Shown here: one piece after another, positions 381 through 29,693 of the stretch
Position numbering within the stretch: position 1 is the stretch's first letter
Layout: each line of letters begins with the position of its first letter
NCBI GenBank assembly: GCA_016928835.1
Contig: JAFGJW010000016.1
Span: 1 to 64,000 of the forward strand
Length of the DNA stretch: 64,000 nucleotides
Reading direction: 5' to 3'
Source: Candidatus Woesearchaeota archaeon
Lineage (GTDB): Archaea; Nanobdellota; Nanobdellia; Woesearchaeales; GW2011-AR15
Notes under the pieces: model-generated
Databases searched by the model: none
What the model was told of the DNA's origin: nothing
Seen by the model: only the letters and a program-made list of their open reading frames with translations
Made by a program: the position numbers and the translations under genes

Positions 381-3340
381 ACCGTACTACTAGGTGGATG
401 ACTTGGCTTATATTGATGATGAAGGGCGTGGCAAGCTACGAAATGTCCTGGGTAGATGCATGCAGTCTTTGATCCAGGAATTCCTCAATGCGACTTCGCC
501 TTGAAACTGTAAGGTTGAGTAACGCAGGGAAGTGAAACGTCTTAGTACCTGCCGGAAAAGAAATCAATTGAGATATTGTGATTAGCAGCGAGCGAAAGCA
601 ATTCAAGTCAAACTGAATCCTTTATCGTAAGATAAAGGAGATGTGGTGTTTTAGGACTGCTATTAAGCCCAACTAGTTGACCAGAACTTATCTGGAATGT
701 TAGGCCTTAGAGGGTGATAGCCCCTTATGGGTAGATTAGTTGGTCCTAGGCAGTATCCTGAGTAGCATCTACTGGATACTAGATGTGAAATTGGAAGGCA
801 TCAACTTCCAAACTTAAATACAATATAAGTCCGATAGCGCACTAGTACCGTGAGGGAAAGTTGAAAAGTACCCTTAACAGGGAGTTAAAAGTACCTGAAG
901 CCTAGTAGTTAAAGTTCGGTACGGCTCTTCGGAGTTGTACTGTACGTTTTGAATAATGTGCCAGGGAGTGTATTTATATGGCGAGGATAATCATAAAAAG
1001 AGAATCCAAAGCGAAAGCAAAAACCCGCAGCTTGCAAGGGGTATGGTATGAAAGTGCCATTAGTCATATGGATACGATCCGAAACCCGGTGATCTAACCC
1101 AGGGTAAGGTGAAGCCGCTGTAATAAGTGGTGGAGGCCTGAAAGGGTTCTGTGAACAAGCGTTCCTCTAACCTTGGGCTAGGGGTGAAAAGCCAATCGAA
1201 CCGGGTGATAGCTGATTCCTGCCGAAATTGGCCGCAGTCAAGTCTCGAGCAAGGTTACAAGGAAGGTAGAGACACGGATTTGAAATTTAGGGTTCGAAAG
1301 GACTCGGTTTCTTGTCCAACTCCAAATGTCCTTGTGCTGAAGAACTCGGGAAACAGGGAGTCTGGGGTAAACTTGACTTCCGAAAGGGGAACAACCCAAC
1401 CTATAGTTAAGGTCCCTAAATGTCAATTAAATGTTAAAGGTCAAAAGGTGTCAGTGGCCTAAGACAGCAAGGAGGTTGGCTTAGAAGCAGCCATCCTATA
1501 ATAAGTGCGTAACAGCTTACTTGTCAAGGTCATTGGCCCTGAAAATGGACGGGGCTAAATTGACTACCGATACTGTAGATCCCTGAAAAGGGAATGGTAG
1601 GCAGGCGTCTTTATTGGACTGAAGTGTTTCTGTAAAGAAATATTGACCAATAAGGAATGAAAATCCTGGTGGTAGTAGGAGCTAAGCAGAGTGAGAATCT
1701 CTGTCACCGAAAGGGCAAGGGTTCCTTGACAATGCAAATCAGTCAAGGGTTAATCGGACCTAACCTAATCCACAAATTGGATGATGGGAAAGGGAGACAG
1801 GTTAATATTCCTGTATTACATAAGTATGCTCGGCAACGAAAGCTCAATTACAGACTTTTCTGGTTAGACTGACGCATCTTATCTGATGCGCTAACAAAAA
1901 TAAATCAAGGGAGTATCGTAATGATGAGAACTTGATTAAGTTTGGAATGATGCTCTGTATGGAGCATTTAGTCAATACCGGGAGACCTTGAAAATGGAAT
2001 TGGGAAAGATCTTATGTAACCGTACCCAGAACCGGCACAGGTGCCCCTAGGTGAGAAGCCTAAGGTGTGAAGGAGAAACCTAAGTTGAGGGAATTCGGCA
2101 AATTAGCCCCGTAGCTTCGGTTTAAGGGGTCCCTGTAGTTGTCTTTGTATAAAGGCTATTACAGGGCGCAGTGACAAGGGGGGTCCGACTGTTTAACAAA
2201 AACTTAACCTTCTGCAAGCCTGCAAAGGTGTGTATAGGAGGTGACGCCTGGCCAGTGCCAGTACTTAAAACTCTCGTTCAAGGGAGCTAAGAGCTGGTAA
2301 ACGCCGGGAGTAACTATAACTCTCTTAAGGTAGCGAAATGCCTTGCCGTTTAATTGACGGCCCGCATGAGTGGCGGAACGAGATCCCCACTGTCCCCAAC
2401 TAGGGTCCTCTGAACTCTCTGTCTGGTGTGAAGGCCAGAGATTCCCAGTGGGACGTGAAGACCCCGTGAAACTTTACTGTAGCCTGTTGCTGTAACGTGA
2501 GTTGCATTGTGTAGAGTAGGTGGTAGTCGCTAAAGCGTAGTCGCCAGATTACGTGTAGACATCAATGAAACACCACCCTTTGTGTCTTACGCTGCTTACT
2601 TGAAAAAGAACACCAATAGGTGGACAGTTTGGCTGGGGTGGCACCCTCCTGAAACGATATCAGGAGGGCCCTAAGGTTGGCTCAAGCCGGTTGGAAATCG
2701 GCAGTAGAGTGCAAGAGCAAAAGCCAGCCTGATTGGATTTACACCTCTACTAAATCCAAAGACGAAAGTCTGGTCTAGCGAACCCTTGTACCTCCTTGAT
2801 GGGGGTCAGGGATGACAAAAAAGTTACTCCGGGGATAACAGAGTTGTCGCGCCCAAGAGCCCATATCGACGGCGCGGCTTGCTACATCGTTGTCGGCTCT
2901 TCCTATCCTGGCCGTGCAGAATAACCTTTTATTAGAAATACTGGTAAAAGGAAATGTATGCGGCCAAGGGTGGGGGTGTTCACCCATTAAAAGATGCTCA
3001 GAAACTGCAAATTTCTGGCACCTCTAATAGAGGGATCGTGAGCTGGGTTCAGAACGTTGTGAGACAGTTTGTTTAATATCTACTGGGAATGTTTGATGTT
3101 TGAGAGGAAGGATCTTTTAGTACGAGAGGAACAAAGGTTCGGTGCCTCTGGTCAACCGGTTATCCGATAGGGTAGGCCGGGCAGCTACGCACTCAGGGAT
3201 AAGAGCTGAAAGCATCTAAGCTCGAAACCCTCCTCGAAAAGAAACATCATTGAACTCCCGTAAAAGACGGGTTTGATGGAACCGGTGTGTAAGCACTAAG
3301 GTAACGAGGTGTTCAGCACGCGGTCACCAAACGTTCATAC
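381..3340 (+). rRNA. 23S rRNA
   Basis: Full-length large-subunit rRNA. Recognisable blocks include GGTGGATGACTTGGCT near the 5' end, the peptidyl-transferase region (GACGTGAAGACCCCGTG near 2453 and CGGGGATAACAG near 2830), and the sarcin-ricin loop AGTACGAGAGGA near 3119. The length of about 2.96 kb is normal, so no large rRNA intron is present. The ends are estimated from the flanking processing stem. No 5S gene follows; the next gene is protein-coding. All open frames inside are spurious. Confidence 0.95.
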
Positions 3341-22492: not shown

Positions 22493-23347
22493 ATGTTATC
22501 ATGGTTCTCATTATTGCTAATAAGCACCTTTCTTGCAGCCATCACAGCCATATTTCAAAAAGTAATACTAGATAATAAGGCTGATCCAATATTCTTTTCA
22601 TCATATTGGCAACTTATTACAGCTTTTATCAGTGTAATTAGTGTTTTATTATTCGGCTTTGAAGCTGATTCGATTAAAATTCTTGTCTTTGCTTTTATTT
22701 GTACCGGCTTGTTTTATGGGCTTGGTACCTACCTCTTCTTTATAGGGTTAAAAAACGCAGAGGCTTCAATGGCATCTATAATGAATCAAGTTAGAGTCAT
22801 CTGGGTTTTAATAGGTAGTTTTATTTTTTTTAAAGAACAAATTACATTAAATAAGCTTGGTGGAGTAAGTTTAATAATTGCTGGAATTTTTATTGTGTTC
22901 CACAAGGGCTTATCTTTAAGATTGAAAAGACCGCAGAGATTAATATTATTATCTACGCTATTTTTTTCATTGGGGATGCTTGCTGATAAGTATTTCATAA
23001 ATTTCTTCAATTCATATACATACCTGGTCATAGATTTTTTGGCGCCCTCATTATTTATAATAATTATATCACCACAAATAATAAAAGACTACAAAAACAT
23101 AAAACCATTTTCAAAAAATAATATCTTAACAGTTCTTGTTGCTTGTGTTTTTTTTGGTTCCATACTAGCTATGCTAACTGCATACAAGCTGGGTGCTGAA
23201 GTATCAATAGCTGTTCCCATTTTTCAGTCAGCAGTTGTTCTGGTTGTCCTGCTCAGCGCAGTATTCTTAGGAGAAAGAGATAATCTATTTAGAAAAATGA
23301 TTGGGTCATTGGTCACAGTATTTGGAGTTTGTTTATTATCTCTTTAA
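22493..23347 (+). CDS. EamA/DMT family transporter
   Basis: 284 residues with ten predicted membrane helices arranged as two five-helix repeats, the drug/metabolite transporter plan. The first half contains the typical ASMASIMNQVRVIWVLIGSF segment and the second ends with AVFLGERDN. Substrate unknown. The start is set by a TATA box (ATATTTATATA, about 22460) roughly 30 nt upstream, giving a leaderless ATG; the longer frame is rejected. Confidence 0.87.
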   Translation: MLSWFSLLLISTFLAAITAIFQKVILDNKADPIFFSSYWQLITAFISVISVLLFGFEADSIKILVFAFICTGLFYGLGTYLFFIGLKNAEASMASIMNQVRVIWVLIGSFIFFKEQITLNKLGGVSLIIAGIFIVFHKGLSLRLKRPQRLILLSTLFFSLGMLADKYFINFFNSYTYLVIDFLAPSLFIIIISPQIIKDYKNIKPFSKNNILTVLVACVFFGSILAMLTAYKLGAEVSIAVPIFQSAVVLVVLLSAVFLGERDNLFRKMIGSLVTVFGVCLLSL

Positions 23348-23465
23348 ATATAGAAAGAAAACATTGGTAACCCTTTTCTCATTTAAAAATTTTTATAGAA
23401 TTGATTATATTTCTTTTACAGCAATAATCTTTATAAATAAAAACAAATCTTCCTACAATCTTAGT

Positions 23466-24539
23466 ATGGATGAATTTGTTAAACTAGTTCTTGAAGACGG
23501 CACTGAGTATCTTGGAAAATCCTTTGGAGCGAGCCAAAATGCATCTGGAGAAGTTGTCTTCACCACTGGAATGGTTGGCTATCCTGAAACTATGACTGAT
23601 CCATCTTATAAAGGACAGATTCTTGTGCTTACTTACCCTTTAATAGGCAACTATGGTGTTCCTGAAAACATAGTTATTGATGAATTATCAATGAACTTGG
23701 AATCAGAAAAAATACAAGTTTCAGCATTGGCAGTATCTGATTATTCAGCTCAATGTAGCCACTGGAATGCAAAAATGTCTCTTGCCCAATGGTTGCAGCA
23801 AAACAGTATCCCTGGAATTTATGGGATTGATACACGTTCTTTAACAAAGAAACTTCGAGATAAAGGGGTAATGCTTGGTAAAATAATAGGCAAAGGCAAC
23901 ATCAGATTTTATGATCCGAACAAGAGCAATCTTGTTAGTCAAGTATCTACAGGCAAAGTAAAAATTTATGGCAAAGGCACCACAAAAATTTTGTTAATTG
24001 ACTGCGGCGCTAAACATAATATTATTCGCTCTCTGCTTAAGCGCGATGTTACAGTAATAAGAACGCCCTGGAATCATAATATCTTCAATATGAATTTTGA
24101 CGGGATTGTCATTTCAAATGGTCCGGGAGATCCCAAAATGTGTAGGCCAGCCATACAAAATATAAAAAAGGCCCTAAGTCATAGAATTCCCGTCTTTGGT
24201 ATATGCCTTGGAAACCAGATTTTGGCTTTAGCAGCGGGAGCCAACACATACAAACTTAAATACGGGCACAGGAGCCAGAATCAACCATGCACTGACAATA
24301 AAACAGGCAGATGTTACATTACAAGCCAAAATCATGGTTATGCTACAGATACAAAAAGTTTACCAGGTGGGTGGAATGAATGGTTCTTTAATTCAAATGA
24401 TAAGACCAATGAGGGCATAATCCACAAAAGTGGTATTTTCAGAAGTGTTCAATTTCACCCTGAAGCTAGTCCTGGCCCTCTTGACACAGGCTTTCTATTT
24501 GATGAATTTATAGAGGTTATAAGGCAAAATGGGAGATAA
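23466..24539 (+). CDS. carA: carbamoyl-phosphate synthase small subunit
   Basis: 357 residues. The N-terminal domain begins VKLVLEDGTEYLGKSFGA and the C-terminal class I glutamine amidotransferase has the nucleophile in FGICLGNQ and the dyad in FHPEASPGP. It supplies ammonia from glutamine to CarB for pyrimidine and arginine synthesis. The start is set by a TATA box (CTTTATAAATA near 23430). It overlaps the mazG-like gene by 11 nt, so the operon is carA-mazG-carB, interrupted by a homing endonuclease gene. One cytosolic histidine after the switch region reads QNHGYA, as in functional homologs. Confidence 0.95.
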   Translation: MDEFVKLVLEDGTEYLGKSFGASQNASGEVVFTTGMVGYPETMTDPSYKGQILVLTYPLIGNYGVPENIVIDELSMNLESEKIQVSALAVSDYSAQCSHWNAKMSLAQWLQQNSIPGIYGIDTRSLTKKLRDKGVMLGKIIGKGNIRFYDPNKSNLVSQVSTGKVKIYGKGTTKILLIDCGAKHNIIRSLLKRDVTVIRTPWNHNIFNMNFDGIVISNGPGDPKMCRPAIQNIKKALSHRIPVFGICLGNQILALAAGANTYKLKYGHRSQNQPCTDNKTGRCYITSQNHGYATDTKSLPGGWNEWFFNSNDKTNEGIIHKSGIFRSVQFHPEASPGPLDTGFLFDEFIEVIRQNGR

Positions 24540-24900
24540 GCTGAATGAACTGATAAAATTGATTGATCAAAGCATGGAATGTGATCCGTGGATGAAAAAA
24601 ACTGGTTTAAAAGGCTATGGCAAGGAAATTATTGGCGAAGCTAATGAATTGCTTGAGGCAATAAACAATGAGGACATTGCTCATATCAAAGAAGAGCTGG
24701 CTGATATTCTAAGGGAGGTTATTATAATTAGCAGATTTGCTAAAGATGAATTCAATTTTGATGATATAATTGCTGAGATTGTTGAAAAAATTAATAGGAG
24801 GCAACCTTATGTTCTAGAAGGAAAAAAGGTTTCAATAGAACAAGCACTTGAAATATGGAAACAGGCAAAAATAAAAGAGAAAAATGAAAAAAAACATTAA
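24529..24900 (+). CDS. MazG-like nucleotide pyrophosphohydrolase
   Basis: 123 residues. The MazG metal site is present: GEANELLEAI (E-x-x-E type) and EELADILREVI with the paired acidic residues, followed by INRRQPYV. MazG enzymes hydrolyse nucleoside triphosphates to monophosphates and pyrophosphate. It sits between carA and carB, overlapping carA by 11 nt and containing the ATG of the carB stub, so it is translationally coupled into pyrimidine synthesis. Confidence 0.88.
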   Translation: MGDKLNELIKLIDQSMECDPWMKKTGLKGYGKEIIGEANELLEAINNEDIAHIKEELADILREVIIISRFAKDEFNFDDIIAEIVEKINRRQPYVLEGKKVSIEQALEIWKQAKIKEKNEKKH

Positions 24901-24949
24901 AAAAGTGCTTATACTCGGAAGCGGAGTCTTGAAGATAGCTGGGAAATGA
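24884..24949 (+). pseudogene. 5' stub of carB, intronless, cut off before the homing endonuclease gene
   Basis: 21 codons starting at an ATG inside mazG. The peptide ends VLILGSGVLKIAG then Lys-stop, while CarB proteins continue KIGEAGEFDYSG. It is a second, diverged copy of the carB start found at 26263. Unlike that copy, its GGAGTCTTGAAGATAG is continuous, with no intron between the glycine-serine-glycine and KI codons. The stop TGA overlaps the endonuclease ATG (ATGA at 24946-24949), so the stub may now act as a leader that couples endonuclease translation to the operon. Confidence 0.8.
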
Positions 24950-26259
24950 TATACATGAACACTACCTTATTCACTGGACATTTCCACGTAGGATATTTAA
25001 ATGAATCCTTCTTAAATTCAAATATGTGTAGCTCCAATTTACCTAATGATTTTTCAAATTTTGTTATTACAAAAGATAGGGATTTAGGTATGAATAACAA
25101 AGAAAAATCAGATAAAAGTTGGATAGAGCTAGAGTTAAACTTTTGGGATTTGTCTAAGGATATAAGATTAAATCTTGATTCAGAATTTTGCAAAAAACTT
25201 TTTGATAGTTGCAAGCTAGATTTTCATTCACTGGCAGAGCAATTAAATGTTACTTATCCCTTTTTGAATCATTTAAGACGAAACATGTATTCTATTCCTC
25301 TAAGCAAAATTCTAAAACTGTCAAAATTGTCAAATATGCCTTTAAACAAAATTCAGGATAATATATCCTCTATTAGAGCGAGAGGAGGCACAGAAATTAA
25401 CATACCCTTACCAATAAAAGCTAATAAAACAATTGCTTCTCTCGTAGGTCATGTTTTTGGAGACGGATACATTGGTAAGACTAGAAAATATTTTGAGTAT
25501 TGTAATTTCAACCCAAAATTAATTGAACAAGTTAAAAAACAGATTCTTGAGTCTTTTGGCTTATATCCTATGTCAGAAAGAAAAGATAGGATAGGTTATC
25601 CTACTATTGTAGGAGAGATATTAAGAATATTTGGAGCCCCAGAGGCCCCTAAAATTTATAGTCCTAATCTTGTCCCAAAGTGGATTCTTCAATCCAAAGA
25701 ACATCAAAAATCTTTTCTGAGAGCGTTTTTTGACGACGATGGTTCAGTTATGTATAGTAAAAATTACAATGCTAAGGGTATAAACCTTAATGTTATAAGG
25801 CATATTAATCAAAAAGAAGAATTACTGACTTTATTGAATCAAATTAAAGTAATGCTAAGTAATTTTGAGATATATTCTGGGAATCCAATAATCTCAAAAA
25901 CCTATAAGAAACAAGACGGAATACATATTATTGGTTATATTAATATTACGGATTATCAAAGTATTATTAATTTCAACAAGTTTATTGGTCTTACATTTGG
26001 AGAAAAATATAAAAAATTAATTAAGATTGTAAACAGAAAAAATTATTACAATAAAAAAAATGAAATAAATATCAATAACGAGATTCTTACTCTTTTATTA
26101 AAGAAAAATTATTCTACTGCTGAAATTGCCAATGTGATACAAAAATCAAAAACTAAAACATTGAAAAAAATGAATCTTCTAAAAAAAAAGAATTTAGTAG
26201 AAATATGTGGCAAAGTTGCAGCTAATAGATCCTATCTATGGAAAATTAAAGGGAGATAA
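24946..26259 (+). CDS. LAGLIDADG homing endonuclease
   Basis: 437 residues. Two LAGLIDADG-type helices are visible: LVGHVFGDGY (166-175) and FLRAFFDDDGSV (about 257-268), each with the metal-binding acidic residues, so the protein can act as a monomer. Helix-turn-helix-like segments lie before (LAEQLNVTYPFLNHLRRN) and after (AEIANVIQKSKTKTLKKM) the catalytic part. The first 48 residues are less convincing; ATG at 25090 is an alternative start. It is inserted in the carB 5' region and flanked by the two carB starts. These enzymes cut a long target in an empty allele and so copy themselves. Confidence 0.93.
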   Translation: MIYMNTTLFTGHFHVGYLNESFLNSNMCSSNLPNDFSNFVITKDRDLGMNNKEKSDKSWIELELNFWDLSKDIRLNLDSEFCKKLFDSCKLDFHSLAEQLNVTYPFLNHLRRNMYSIPLSKILKLSKLSNMPLNKIQDNISSIRARGGTEINIPLPIKANKTIASLVGHVFGDGYIGKTRKYFEYCNFNPKLIEQVKKQILESFGLYPMSERKDRIGYPTIVGEILRIFGAPEAPKIYSPNLVPKWILQSKEHQKSFLRAFFDDDGSVMYSKNYNAKGINLNVIRHINQKEELLTLLNQIKVMLSNFEIYSGNPIISKTYKKQDGIHIIGYINITDYQSIINFNKFIGLTFGEKYKKLIKIVNRKNYYNKKNEININNEILTLLLKKNYSTAEIANVIQKSKTKTLKKMNLLKKKNLVEICGKVAANRSYLWKIKGR

Positions 26260-26262
26260 AAT

Positions 26263-29200
26263 GTGAAAAAAGAAATGTTACCTAAGAAGATTATGATTCT
26301 TGGTAGCGGTGCATATTAGTCTAGCAAAGCTAGCTAAGCAGAGTGAAGATCGGAGAAGCAGGCGAGACCTTTTAAAGGCGCTTATTCGATTACTCCGGTT
26401 CTCAAGCTATCAAGGCTCTCAAAGAGGAAGGGATAGAGACAATTCTCGTTAACCCAAACATTGCAACTATACAGACCTCTGAACACCTTGCTGATAAAGT
26501 ATATTTTCTGCCTGTTAGCCCTTATTTTGTAACCAAAGTTATTGAAAAGGAGCAACCAGATGGAATCCTTTTATCTTTTGGGGGGCAGACTGCGCTTAAC
26601 TGCGGTGTGGAATTATATAAAGGAGGTATTCTCAATAGGTATGAAATTCAGGTTCTGGGAACATCTGTACAGACAATAATCAACACAGAAGATAGGGATC
26701 TGTTTGTAAAGGAGTTATCAAAAATAGGAGTACTGAGTCCTAGAAGCACTGCTGCGCGTTGTGTTAAGGGCGCAGTTAAAGCAGCTGAGAGCATCGGCTA
26801 TCCAGTAATGCTCAGAGGCGCTTATTCACTTGGAGGCAAAGGCTCTGGTGTAGCTTATAACAGAAAAAAACTACTGGGAATGGCAAAAAGAGCATTTTCT
26901 TCACTTCCTCAGATATTGATAGAAGAATATCTAGGTGGCTGGAAGGAGATAGAGTATGAAGTTGTAAGGGATAAAGATGATAATTGCATTACTGTATGCA
27001 ATATGGAAAATATGGACCCAATGGGTATTCACACCGGAGAAAGCATTGTTGTAGCTCCTTCGCAAACTCTTACAAACTCAGAATACCATAAGCTCAGAGA
27101 GATATCAATAAAAGTAATAAGACATCTTGGAATAGTAGGGGAATGTAATATACAATTTGCTCTTGAACCAAATTCTGAGGAGTATAGGGTCATCGAAGTT
27201 AATGCACGCTTATCAAGGTCAAGTGCATTAGCATCAAAAGCAACTGGGTATCCACTTGCATATATAGCTGCTAAACTTGCACTTGGTTACTCATTGCCAG
27301 AATTAGAAAATAGTATAACAAAAATTACGAAAGCTTGTTTTGAGCCTGCCTTGGATTATATTGTTGTTAAAATACCCCGGTGGGATTTGCAGAAATTTAA
27401 GAGGGTAAGTAAAAAGATAGGCAGTGAGATGAAATCTGTAGGTGAAGTAATGTCAATAGCCAGAAAATTTGAGGAGGGGCTTCAGAAAGCTATTAGGATG
27501 CTTGATATAGGAAAGCAAGGTATTATAGACAATAATATTAATTTCAGGAAAATAGATGAATCTCTTAAGGCACCAACAGATAAACGGTTATTTGCAGTAG
27601 CTACTGCACTTAGAAATGGTATTACTATAGATGAGATTCATAATTTAACTAAGATTGACAAATGGTTCCTTTACAAAATAAACAATATTGTCCAAGTATA
27701 TAATGAATTAATAAATCAGCCGCTAGATAATCAATTGCTTCACGAAGCCAAGCAGCTGGGATTCTCAGACCAGCAGATTGCTGACATTAAAAAGTGTGAG
27801 GAACTGGACATAAGAAGATTAAGAAAAAGATGTAATGTCTTGCCTGTAATAAAACAGATTGATACTCTAGCTGCAGAGTATCCTGCAGCAACAAATTATT
27901 TGTACCTAACATACAATGGTACTGAAAATGACGTACAATTAGATAATAGAAAAGCTGTTCTTGTACTTGGTTCAGGTGCATATAGAATTGGCTCAAGTGT
28001 TGAATTTGATTGGTGCTGTGTAAATACTGTACGTACATTAAGAAAATTAAATTATAGGACATTAATGCTGAACTACAATCCTGAAACAGTGAGCACAGAC
28101 TATGATGAATGCGATAGCCTCTATTTTGATGAATTGAGTTTTGAGAGAGTGCTTGATATCTATGATTTTGAGAATCCTCTGGGCATTATTGTCTCTATGG
28201 GGGGCCAGATCCCAAACAATTTGGCAATAAGACTTCATGAGTCCGGTGTATACATATTAGGTACTCATGCTGAGAAAATTGATATGGCTGAGAATAGGCA
28301 TAAATTTTCCATGTTGCTCGACAAGCTCAATATTGATCAGCCTTCGTGGAAAGAATTGACCAATATTAAAGACATTGAAAAATTTTCTGACTTGGTTGGG
28401 TATCCAATTTTGATAAGGCCAAGTTATGTTTTATCAGGAGCTGCAATGAGTGTTGTTGAAAATAAGAAGTATCTGTATGATTTCTTGAAAAAAGCTGCAT
28501 CTGTCTCAAAAAAATATCCAGTTGTTGTATCAAAGTTCATAGAAAATGCAAAGGAAATAGAAATGGATGCTGTTGCAAAGGATGGCGAGATTATTGTTTA
28601 CGCGATCTCTGAACATATAGAAAATGCAGGAGTCCACAGTGGAGATGCCACAATGGTTCTTCCAGCTCAGAGATTGTATGTTGAGACTATAAGAAAAATA
28701 AAAAGAATCGGAAAACAGATTTCTAAAGCACTAGATATCAATGGTCCTTTTAACATTCAGTTCGTGGCGACACGCAATGAGATCAAGGTAATAGAATGCA
28801 ACCTTAGAGTATCCAGAAGTTTTCCATTTGTATCAAAAGTTTTTAAGATAAACTTTATAGAGCTTGCTACAAAAATCATAATGAAACAGCATGTTGAAAA
28901 GCCAGAAAAGTCCCATTTTGAGCTCGACTACGTGGGTGTAAAAGCTCCACAATTCTCATTTTCAAGACTAAAAGGGGCAGATCCCACCTCTTTTGTTGAG
29001 ATGGCTTCAACTGGTGAGGTTGCTTGTCTAGGTGATAATTTTTCTGATGCTTTTTTAAAGGCATTATTGTCAACAGGATTTAAGATACCGAAAAAAACCA
29101 TTCTCTTATCGACTGGGCCAGTTGAAAGCAAAGCTGACTTTCTGGCAAGTACAAGAAAATTACACAATAGGGGATATGAGTTCTATGCTACAAGAGGGAC

Positions 29201-29495
29201 TGCAATATTTATGAAGAATAATAAAATCCCTGTAAAAGTCCTAAGGTGGCCCCTGGAAAGAGAAGAGCCGAATGTGGTAACCTACCTAAGAGAAGGCAGA
29301 ATAGATTTTGTCGTGAATATTCCAAAAAATTATCACGAGGAAGAGCTTACTAATGATTATGTTATTAGAAGAACTTCGGTGGACTATAATGTTCCTTTGA
29401 TAACCAATCTTCAGCTCGCAAAATGCTTTGTAGATGCAATTACTTCGTATAAAGTAGAGGATCTTGAAATAAAGAGCTGGGATGAATACAGTTAA
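26263..29495 (+). CDS. carB: carbamoyl-phosphate synthase large subunit, interrupted by two micro-introns
   Basis: With 26315-26343 and 26367-26384 removed, the frame runs from GTG at 26263 to the stop at 29495 and gives 1061 residues, the normal CarB length. The spliced N terminus reads KKIMILGSGALKIGEAGEF then DYSGSQAIKALKEEG, as in other CarB proteins. The two ATP-grasp halves follow (PVMLRGAYSLGGKGSG; YPILIRPSYVLSGAAM) with a C-terminal regulatory domain. The GTG lies 4 nt after the endonuclease stop, with GGGAG upstream. Unspliced translation stops at TAG 26317-26319. Starting at an internal GTG (26607) would lose about 100 essential residues. If splicing does not happen the gene is broken. 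Confidence 0.85.
26315..26343 (+). other. carB micro-intron 1 (29 nt, BHB)
   Basis: Its position is fixed by comparison: the upstream stub has GSGVLKI uninterrupted, and removing these 29 nt gives GSGALKI. UGC before the 5' bulge AUA pairs with GCA before the 3' bulge AGU, with one G-G mismatch. The cuts fall after the second base of each bulge. The interior folds as UUAG-CUAGC against GCUAG-CUAA around AAA. It introduces a frameshift and an in-frame TAG if retained. Confidence 0.8.
26367..26384 (+). other. carB micro-intron 2 (18 nt, BHB)
   Basis: Only 18 nt, yet it makes a full BHB: central helix GGCG/CGCU (four pairs including G-U), 5' bulge AGA, 3' bulge UAU, and inner hairpin CCUU/AAGG. 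Cutting after the second base of each bulge joins GAG to TTC and restores the invariant GEAGEFDYSG. Retained, it adds an in-frame TAA. Confidence 0.82.
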
Positions 29496-29556
29496 ATGAA
29501 TTTTTGCAAAAACCATATATAAAATTTTTAAATTTTGCCTCTTTCCTTTCTTATAT

Positions 29557-29656
29557 GGGGTTGTGGTCTAACTTGGCTATGATATCGCGTTCGGGACGCG
29601 GTGGCTCTGGGTTCGAACAGGAGGGGAATTCTTCTAAGAAAATCCCAGCAACCCCA
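29557..29656 (+). tRNA. tRNA-Pro(CGG) with a 25-nt T-loop intron
   Basis: Acceptor GGGGTTG/CAACCCC with discriminator A. The anticodon stem TCGCG/CGCGG encloses TTCGGGA, anticodon CGG at 29592-29594. T stem CTGGG (29607-29611) pairs with CCCAG (29644-29648) after removal of 29618-29642; the mature loop is TTCGAAT. A TATA-like AAATTTTTAAATTTT lies about 30 nt upstream. Confidence 0.92.
29618..29642 (+). other. BHB intron in the T loop of tRNA-Pro(CGG)
   Basis: 25 nt, the shortest of the T-loop introns. UUCG of the loop pairs with AGAA (three pairs plus a G-A mismatch). Bulges are AAC and AAU with canonical cuts. The interior is very short, containing GAAUUC. Confidence 0.8.
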
Positions 29657-29693
29657 TAATTATAAAAACTACATTATTGTTCTATAAGAATAT

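Follow-up and report, generated by a model that had tools for sequence, protein, structure and literature searches.

The window analysed here (64,000 nucleotides, positions 1 to 64,000 of contig JAFGJW010000016.1, assembly GCA_016928835.1 of Candidatus Woesearchaeota archaeon) carries on its plus strand, in this order, carA (23301..24539; Pfam CPSase_sm_chain and GATase), a gene of the MazG family (24529..24900; Pfam MazG, E=6e-17), a stub of a former carB 5' end (24884..24949), a free-standing homing endonuclease gene (HEG) of the LAGLIDADG type, and carB, which encodes the large subunit of carbamoyl-phosphate synthase. The stub consists of 21 codons (MKKNIKKVLILGSGVLKIAGK, followed by a stop) and overlaps the 3' end of the MazG-like gene. 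The HEG (24946..26259; Pfam LAGLIDADG_3, E=7e-8) codes for a protein of 437 amino acids assigned below to family A, and its stop codon lies 3 nt 5' of the carB start. Rfam matches in the window are limited to rRNA and tRNA. At 29556-29659, there is also a tRNA gene that ARAGORN missed; by eye, it is a tRNA-Pro with the anticodon CGG, and its T loop seems to contain an intron of about 25 nt (CTGGGTTCGAA...CCCAG) at a non-canonical position. Such an intron is compatible with a genome that has active bulge-helix-bulge (BHB) splicing.

Translation indicates that carB of the window is open from end to end only after removal of two short inserts, 26315-26343 (29 nt) and 26367-26384 (18 nt), in exact agreement with a sequence-only reading of this DNA; without such removal, stop codons are present in all three frames. 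Exon 1 (26263..26314) opens with a GTG start codon at 26263 and ends at the first base of a Leu codon, and is followed by the first insert (ATTAGTCTAGCAAAGCTAGCTAAGCAGAG), which causes a frameshift and contains an in-frame stop. Exon 2 (26344..26366) supplies the remaining bases of the Leu codon and then encodes KIGEAGE, and the second insert (ACCTTTTAAAGGCGCTTA) brings an in-frame TAA. Exon 3 (26385..29495) encodes FDYSGSQ and the remainder of the protein up to the stop codon. Once both inserts are removed, the frame is continuous with the 962-aa ORF at 26607-29495, and the rest of the gene is open for approximately 1,040 codons. That each excision restores a CarB motif, as that reading had also stated, is borne out by the translation and by 40 distinct intronless relatives, none of which has an insert at either site and in all of which the GSG.. 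motif is uninterrupted.

With the boundaries fixed by the reading frame, both inserts can be laid out as BHB elements, that is, four 5'-exon bases, a bulge NN^N, an intron hairpin, four intron bases, and a second bulge NN^N. In micro-intron 1, the central helix (26309-26312/26338-26341, GUGC/GCAG) has three of four base pairs, the bulges are AU^A (26313-26315) and AG^U (26342-26344), and the inner stem is UUAGU...CUAA. In micro-intron 2, the central helix (26361-26364/26379-26382, GGCG/CGCU) is complete, with AG^A (26365-26367) and UA^U (26383-26385) as bulges and CCUU/AAGG as the inner stem. Both boundaries fit the 3-nt bulges cut after the second base that the sequence-only reading described, and the complete central helix with its CCUU/AAGG hairpin that it assigned to the 18-nt intron is present as well, but this completeness does not extend to micro-intron 1; three of four pairs is the usual state at this site (6 of 7 cases, see below). 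Around micro-intron 2, an additional outer helix pairs the two exons (26351..26397; CGGAG at 26351-26355 with CUCCG at 26393-26397) and is built from synonymous codon choice. The genome of the window encodes the splicing endonuclease EndA (PF01974, 1.7e-28) and the RNA ligase RtcB (PF01139, 2e-174).

An N-terminal CarB query finds carB-like matches in 105 of 353 genomes of the window's order, and most of these genes read without interruption. Besides carB of the window, 17 genes are interrupted, so that 23 inserts, all of 17-36 nt, are found in 18 genes, with a patchy distribution within the order. The inserts occupy the two sites seen in the window, with the exception of L080, a divergent CarB with an offset of one base. 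At site 1 (A|LKI), seven genes including that of the window are interrupted (29-36 nt; the others are L034, L068, L076, L077, L078 and L082), and at site 2 (AGE|FDYSG) 15, again including the window (17-32 nt); both sites are occupied in the window, L076, L077, L078 and L082. Two of the interrupted genes are damaged in exon 3, downstream of the introns, L074 (G145) by a nonsense codon (IQTS*GMADK) and L082 (G150) by a frame-breaking deletion (VIE...NCGV), which reflects either decay or error in assembly of these metagenomic genomes.

Inserts of the same kind are widespread in other archaea. A pattern scan of genome contigs returns at least 118 stretches, a few chance matches among them, and at least 109 loci were accepted, all with at least three of four central and at least three inner pairs. 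Subtraction of three Woesearchaeota leaves at least 106 carB loci of other archaea with inserts of 17-29 nt at exactly site 2. Among the matches listed with titles, the carriers outside Woesearchaeota are Nitrososphaerota, including Nitrosopumilus, Nitrosarchaeum, Nitrosotalea, Nitrososphaera and Nitrosocosmicus, with isolates and complete chromosomes among them; Nitrosopumilus salaria BD31 (L145) and Nitrosotalea devanaterra (L168) are two named carriers. Within 220 genomes of the phylum of one Nitrosopumilus, about 20 possess the insert and 13 close relatives lack it, so that its presence is patchy even among close Nitrosopumilus-like species; in a more distant member of this survey (L246), the insert measures 19 nt and its central helix, GCGG/CCGC, is entirely different. 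Excision of the inserts from Woesearchaeota and from other archaea restores GE|FDYSG or A-(L/I)-KI. In view of these numbers, the sequence-only description of such introns as very rare does not hold for carB. Nor does the 18-nt intron set a record for small size, given that two of the carB inserts found here are 17 nt long and that the BHB introns of cbf5 measure 16-44 bp (PMC2738675).

The structure of the inserts is conserved far beyond chance, while they differ in sequence throughout. With the requirement of at least three central and at least three contiguous inner pairs, and shuffled insert bases as the null, 21 of the 23 woesearchaeal inserts have the BHB form against 0.16 expected; in the other two, the inner stem is bulged or mismatched. 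Across 89 distinct introns and seven helix positions, 604 of 623 cells contain standard pairs (mean 472 and maximum 486 in 1000 shuffles), and several types of standard pair occur at each of the seven positions, that is, compensatory changes are seen in both helices. The central helices include GGCG/CGCN, GGTG/CACN, GTGC/GCAN, GCGC/GCGA, GCGG/CCGC and CTGA/TCAG. The outer helix at site 2 is CGGAG/CUCCG in most intron carriers and ACUAUAG/CUAUAGU in L073 and L075; it is found only in intron carriers, and the exon-exon duplex energies at this site are greater in intron-bearing than in intronless genes (Mann-Whitney U, p=7e-8), whereas the same test for an outer exon helix at site 1 is not significant (p=0.36). 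Each of the 129 inserts (23 from Woesearchaeota and 106 from other archaea) breaks the frame, contains a stop codon or does both, so that removal or bypass of the insert is needed in every case. The identification of both inserts of the window as BHB micro-introns in the carB pre-mRNA is strongly supported by comparative sequence analysis, namely by the recurrence of inserts at identical sites in independent genomes, by the compensatory changes, by boundaries fixed by the frame, and by the presence of EndA and RtcB genes; from this we infer that they are spliced.

Thus far the BHB interpretation of the sequence-only reading stands, but that reading overlooked the LAGLIDADG HEG between the stub and carB, which is the likely reason for the inserts. 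An HEG lies directly 5' of carB, overlapping its start or almost touching it, in 14 of the 18 intron-bearing woesearchaeal genes. The same HMMs detect no HEG 5' of 38 intronless carB genes (Fisher p=5e-10 compared with 14 of 18), and among approximately 39 intronless genes a single one is preceded by an HEG and has an altered target motif; the counts of intronless genes lacking an HEG refer to those loci that were retrieved with about 1-1.5 kb of sequence on the 5' side. Two unrelated HEG families are involved, family A (LAGLIDADG; the window and seven other loci) and family B (HNH_repeat, PF18780; six loci), and their lineages correspond to intron sites: family A accompanies site 2 in 8 of 8 cases (one shifted by 1 nt), B1 accompanies site 1 in 4 of 4, and B2 accompanies site 2 in 2 of 2. 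All eight close family-A homologues in 338 genomes adjoin an intron-bearing carB. Of the family-B homologues, one in G041 ends at a contig edge, and one in G171 (L310) adjoins the intronless carB mentioned above, in which the target reads GALSIGQGGE (GALSIGQGGEFDYSG) and departs from the usual motif, as if this gene had become immune by mutation. Conversely, four intron-bearing woesearchaeal genes (L065, L071, L078 and L082) have no HEG, and none was seen near carB in Nitrososphaerota. Introns without an HEG are common and an HEG without an intron is almost absent, which is the pattern predicted by an immunity function of the intron.

Unrelated free-standing HEGs have in common a leader that is detectable by blastn at the DNA level (24958..25095 in the window, and L034, L069, L072, L074, L284, L314 and others). 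It contains CACTGGACA and TATTTAAA, followed by GCACACGCARAACTGCCAAATTATGATTTT...AAAATCAATTAYGCAGTTTCGCTT, an imperfect inverted repeat; this promoter-like leader is perhaps a shared promoter and structured 5' UTR of the HEGs. Rfam searches of the HEG loci give no matches, and no HEG was found in viral contigs. The association extends to at least one other gene: in G293, a distant homologue of family A lies directly 5' of a cysS gene (L282, ~2960-3330, HEG-oriented) in which a 31-nt insert splits the motif CGP|TVYDYPHIGN. The layout of this insert is BHB-like, and the predicted minimum-energy fold shows it too. Other homologues of the HEG superfamily are found 5' of topA, rtcA, hjc and a radical-SAM gene (genes named by eye from their translations) without an evident intron, so that such HEGs do not always live with a micro-intron, and the pairing that is frequent at carB does not hold throughout the superfamily. 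In three genomes of the order (L312, L313 and L314), HNH_repeat-like HEG homologues are located between the C-terminal end of an apparent mcm and an rpa-like gene. Elsewhere in the genome of the window (~2700-3800 of L094, from G000:C16, minus strand), a LAGLIDADG HEG lies beside a tRNA-like sequence (GCCGGAG...CTCCGGCA) and is flanked on its other side by a second partial copy of the 3' half of that sequence, possibly the same style of insertion in a tRNA gene.

Signs of movement are present at the locus itself. The stub at 24884-24949, from which the sequence-only reading drew support for the first intron boundary, is a genuine, diverged native carB start without intron 1. A second native stub lies 5' of the HEG in L069, and no carB stub can be recognised at the other 12 of the 14 loci with an HEG. 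Native stubs in the window and in L069 are expected if a cassette consisting of the HEG and a donor 5' end was copied in. The HEG of the window forms a group with its counterparts in G145 (family f10) and G342 (f15), and two other members of the genus of G145 possess a different family-A lineage; the resolution of the HEG and carB trees is too poor to prove horizontal transfer by themselves. A single large intron extending from the stub, which ends at the same motif, to exon 3 was considered and rejected: carB starts anew downstream of the HEG, the stub is missing 6 nt and thereafter reaches a stop, and no recognisable stub exists at 12 of the 14 HEG loci. Intron carriers of the two phyla also share codons around site 2, with an identity of 0.58-0.59 within 8 codons and approximately 0.40, the background level, outside; this sharing could reflect co-conversion or the constraint imposed by the outer helix, each explaining part of it.

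For the observations made at these loci (the inserts, the restored frame, the BHB geometry with its covariation, the HEG association and the stubs), the reading that we consider very probable is that micro-introns spliced by EndA and a ligase give carB immunity to the HEG next to it, with which they are co-inherited as a cassette. In the carB pre-mRNA, EndA would cleave each 3-nt bulge behind its second base, and the RNA ligase RtcB would join the exons, which would restore the conserved motif. The DNA of this invariant motif is the predicted target of the HEG; an insert there would abolish the cut site, and splicing would spare the host any cost. Through double-strand-break repair, the HEG may then spread along with the intron and a new 5' end of carB, the entering cassette replacing the 5' end of the recipient carB and at times leaving a stub, as in the window. 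Where the HEG decays, the intron would stay, as in Nitrososphaerota.

Among the rival explanations, it is unlikely, although less so than for the others, that the introns are ancient and vertically inherited, as in cbf5, and that HEGs are found beside carB for unrelated reasons. The wide occurrence of the site-2 intron without an HEG in Nitrososphaerota, the four HEG-less woesearchaeal genes and the persistence of BHB mRNA introns in cbf5 without an HEG (PMC2738675) are all in line with such a history, but the excess of HEGs at intron-bearing over intronless carB (14/18 against 0/38), the site-specific pairing of HEG lineages with introns, the stubs, and the patchy presence of introns within one order and among close Nitrosopumilus-like species argue against it. 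Translational bypassing, in which ribosomes would hop over the inserts as in T4 gene 60 and no splicing would occur, has very little probability. It draws on the organisation of a protective insert next to an HEG, which is the same as in T4, and on the fact that the inserts form hairpins and start near stop codons. However, matched take-off and landing codons, a feature of gene 60 bypassing (PMC5009743), are found in none of the site-2 inserts of Woesearchaeota, in 0 of 7 at site 1 and in 0 of 106 from other archaea; carB of the window would need two hops 23 nt apart; and the conserved 3-nt bulges and outer exon helices would be left unexplained. A bypass element was rejected on account of the missing landing codons, and only a functional analogy to T4 remains.

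Initiation at an internal start such as the GTG at 26607, with the insert-bearing 5' end as a non-coding leader, is very improbable. It would make use of the open 962-aa frame but would sacrifice the near-invariant GSG.. motif, whose coding sequence is kept in intron carriers both before and after the inserts. Sequencing or assembly errors, or a decaying pseudogene, might be suspected in a draft genome of 20 contigs, with additional carB damage in two relatives. Nevertheless, the rest of carB in the window is open, and inserts at the same site with compensatory changes are present in well over 100 assemblies that are independent of one another, some of them from isolates or complete chromosomes; the comparison with CarB of relatives, which the sequence-only reading had recommended, rules out assembly error through this recurrence, and error or decay was rejected as a general explanation, its residual probability being negligible.

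The closest known counterparts of the carB micro-introns are the short BHB introns (16-44 bp) in the cbf5 pre-mRNA of Crenarchaeota (Watanabe 2002; Yokobori 2009, PMC2738675), outside which no BHB mRNA intron had been confirmed as of 2009 and for which a link to endonucleases, with the introns as deletion derivatives, was only speculated (PMC2738675). Both sets are short BHB introns that interrupt an essential motif of a protein-coding gene, are cut by EndA (predicted for carB) and show patchy gain and loss; unlike cbf5, carB has its introns in Woesearchaeota and Nitrososphaerota, at two sites per gene, and with a free-standing HEG alongside. In phage T4, the HEG mobA split the topoisomerase gene, and the 50-nt bypassed insert of gene 60 is thought to protect against the nuclease (PMC5009743, PMC2988022). 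The arrangement at carB is similar in that a free-standing HEG has entered a conserved gene and adjoins a short, putatively protective, non-coding insert, and reading is restored at expression, but it differs in being located on an archaeal chromosome, in employing LAGLIDADG or HNH_repeat nucleases and predicted EndA splicing instead of hopping, and in recurring across a whole order. In archaeal rRNA introns of the I-DmoI type, which are also of the BHB kind, the HEG is encoded inside the intron. These elements share with carB the combination of BHB splicing (predicted for carB) and LAGLIDADG homing, whereas the carB HEG (24946-26259) lies outside the intron, 5' of the host gene, and the introns are only 17-36 nt long.

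No report of carB introns was found in the literature searched, which covered few subscription journals, and the coupling of BHB mRNA introns to external homing endonucleases, as deduced from the genomic data, appears to be new. With moderate confidence, these loci may represent a general bipartite mobile element of archaea, in which a free-standing HEG is combined with a minimal BHB intron that serves as an immunity tag; such an element would enter invariant motifs of essential protein genes (two sites in carB, one in cysS), cross archaeal phyla and leave HEG-less micro-introns fixed in major groups, e.g., ammonia-oxidising archaea. In practical terms, carB is probably mis-annotated as truncated or as a pseudogene in many archaeal genomes. 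Introns of 17-36 nt are found again and again in one essential enzyme gene in two phyla of archaea, with many ammonia oxidisers among the carriers. Some of these are in culture, so that laboratory strains and existing RNA-seq data would allow direct tests of how short archaeal introns arise and what becomes of them. The link to the HEG would provide a concrete reason for intron gain, namely immunity to a selfish nuclease, with splicing in the role that ribosome hopping has in T4.
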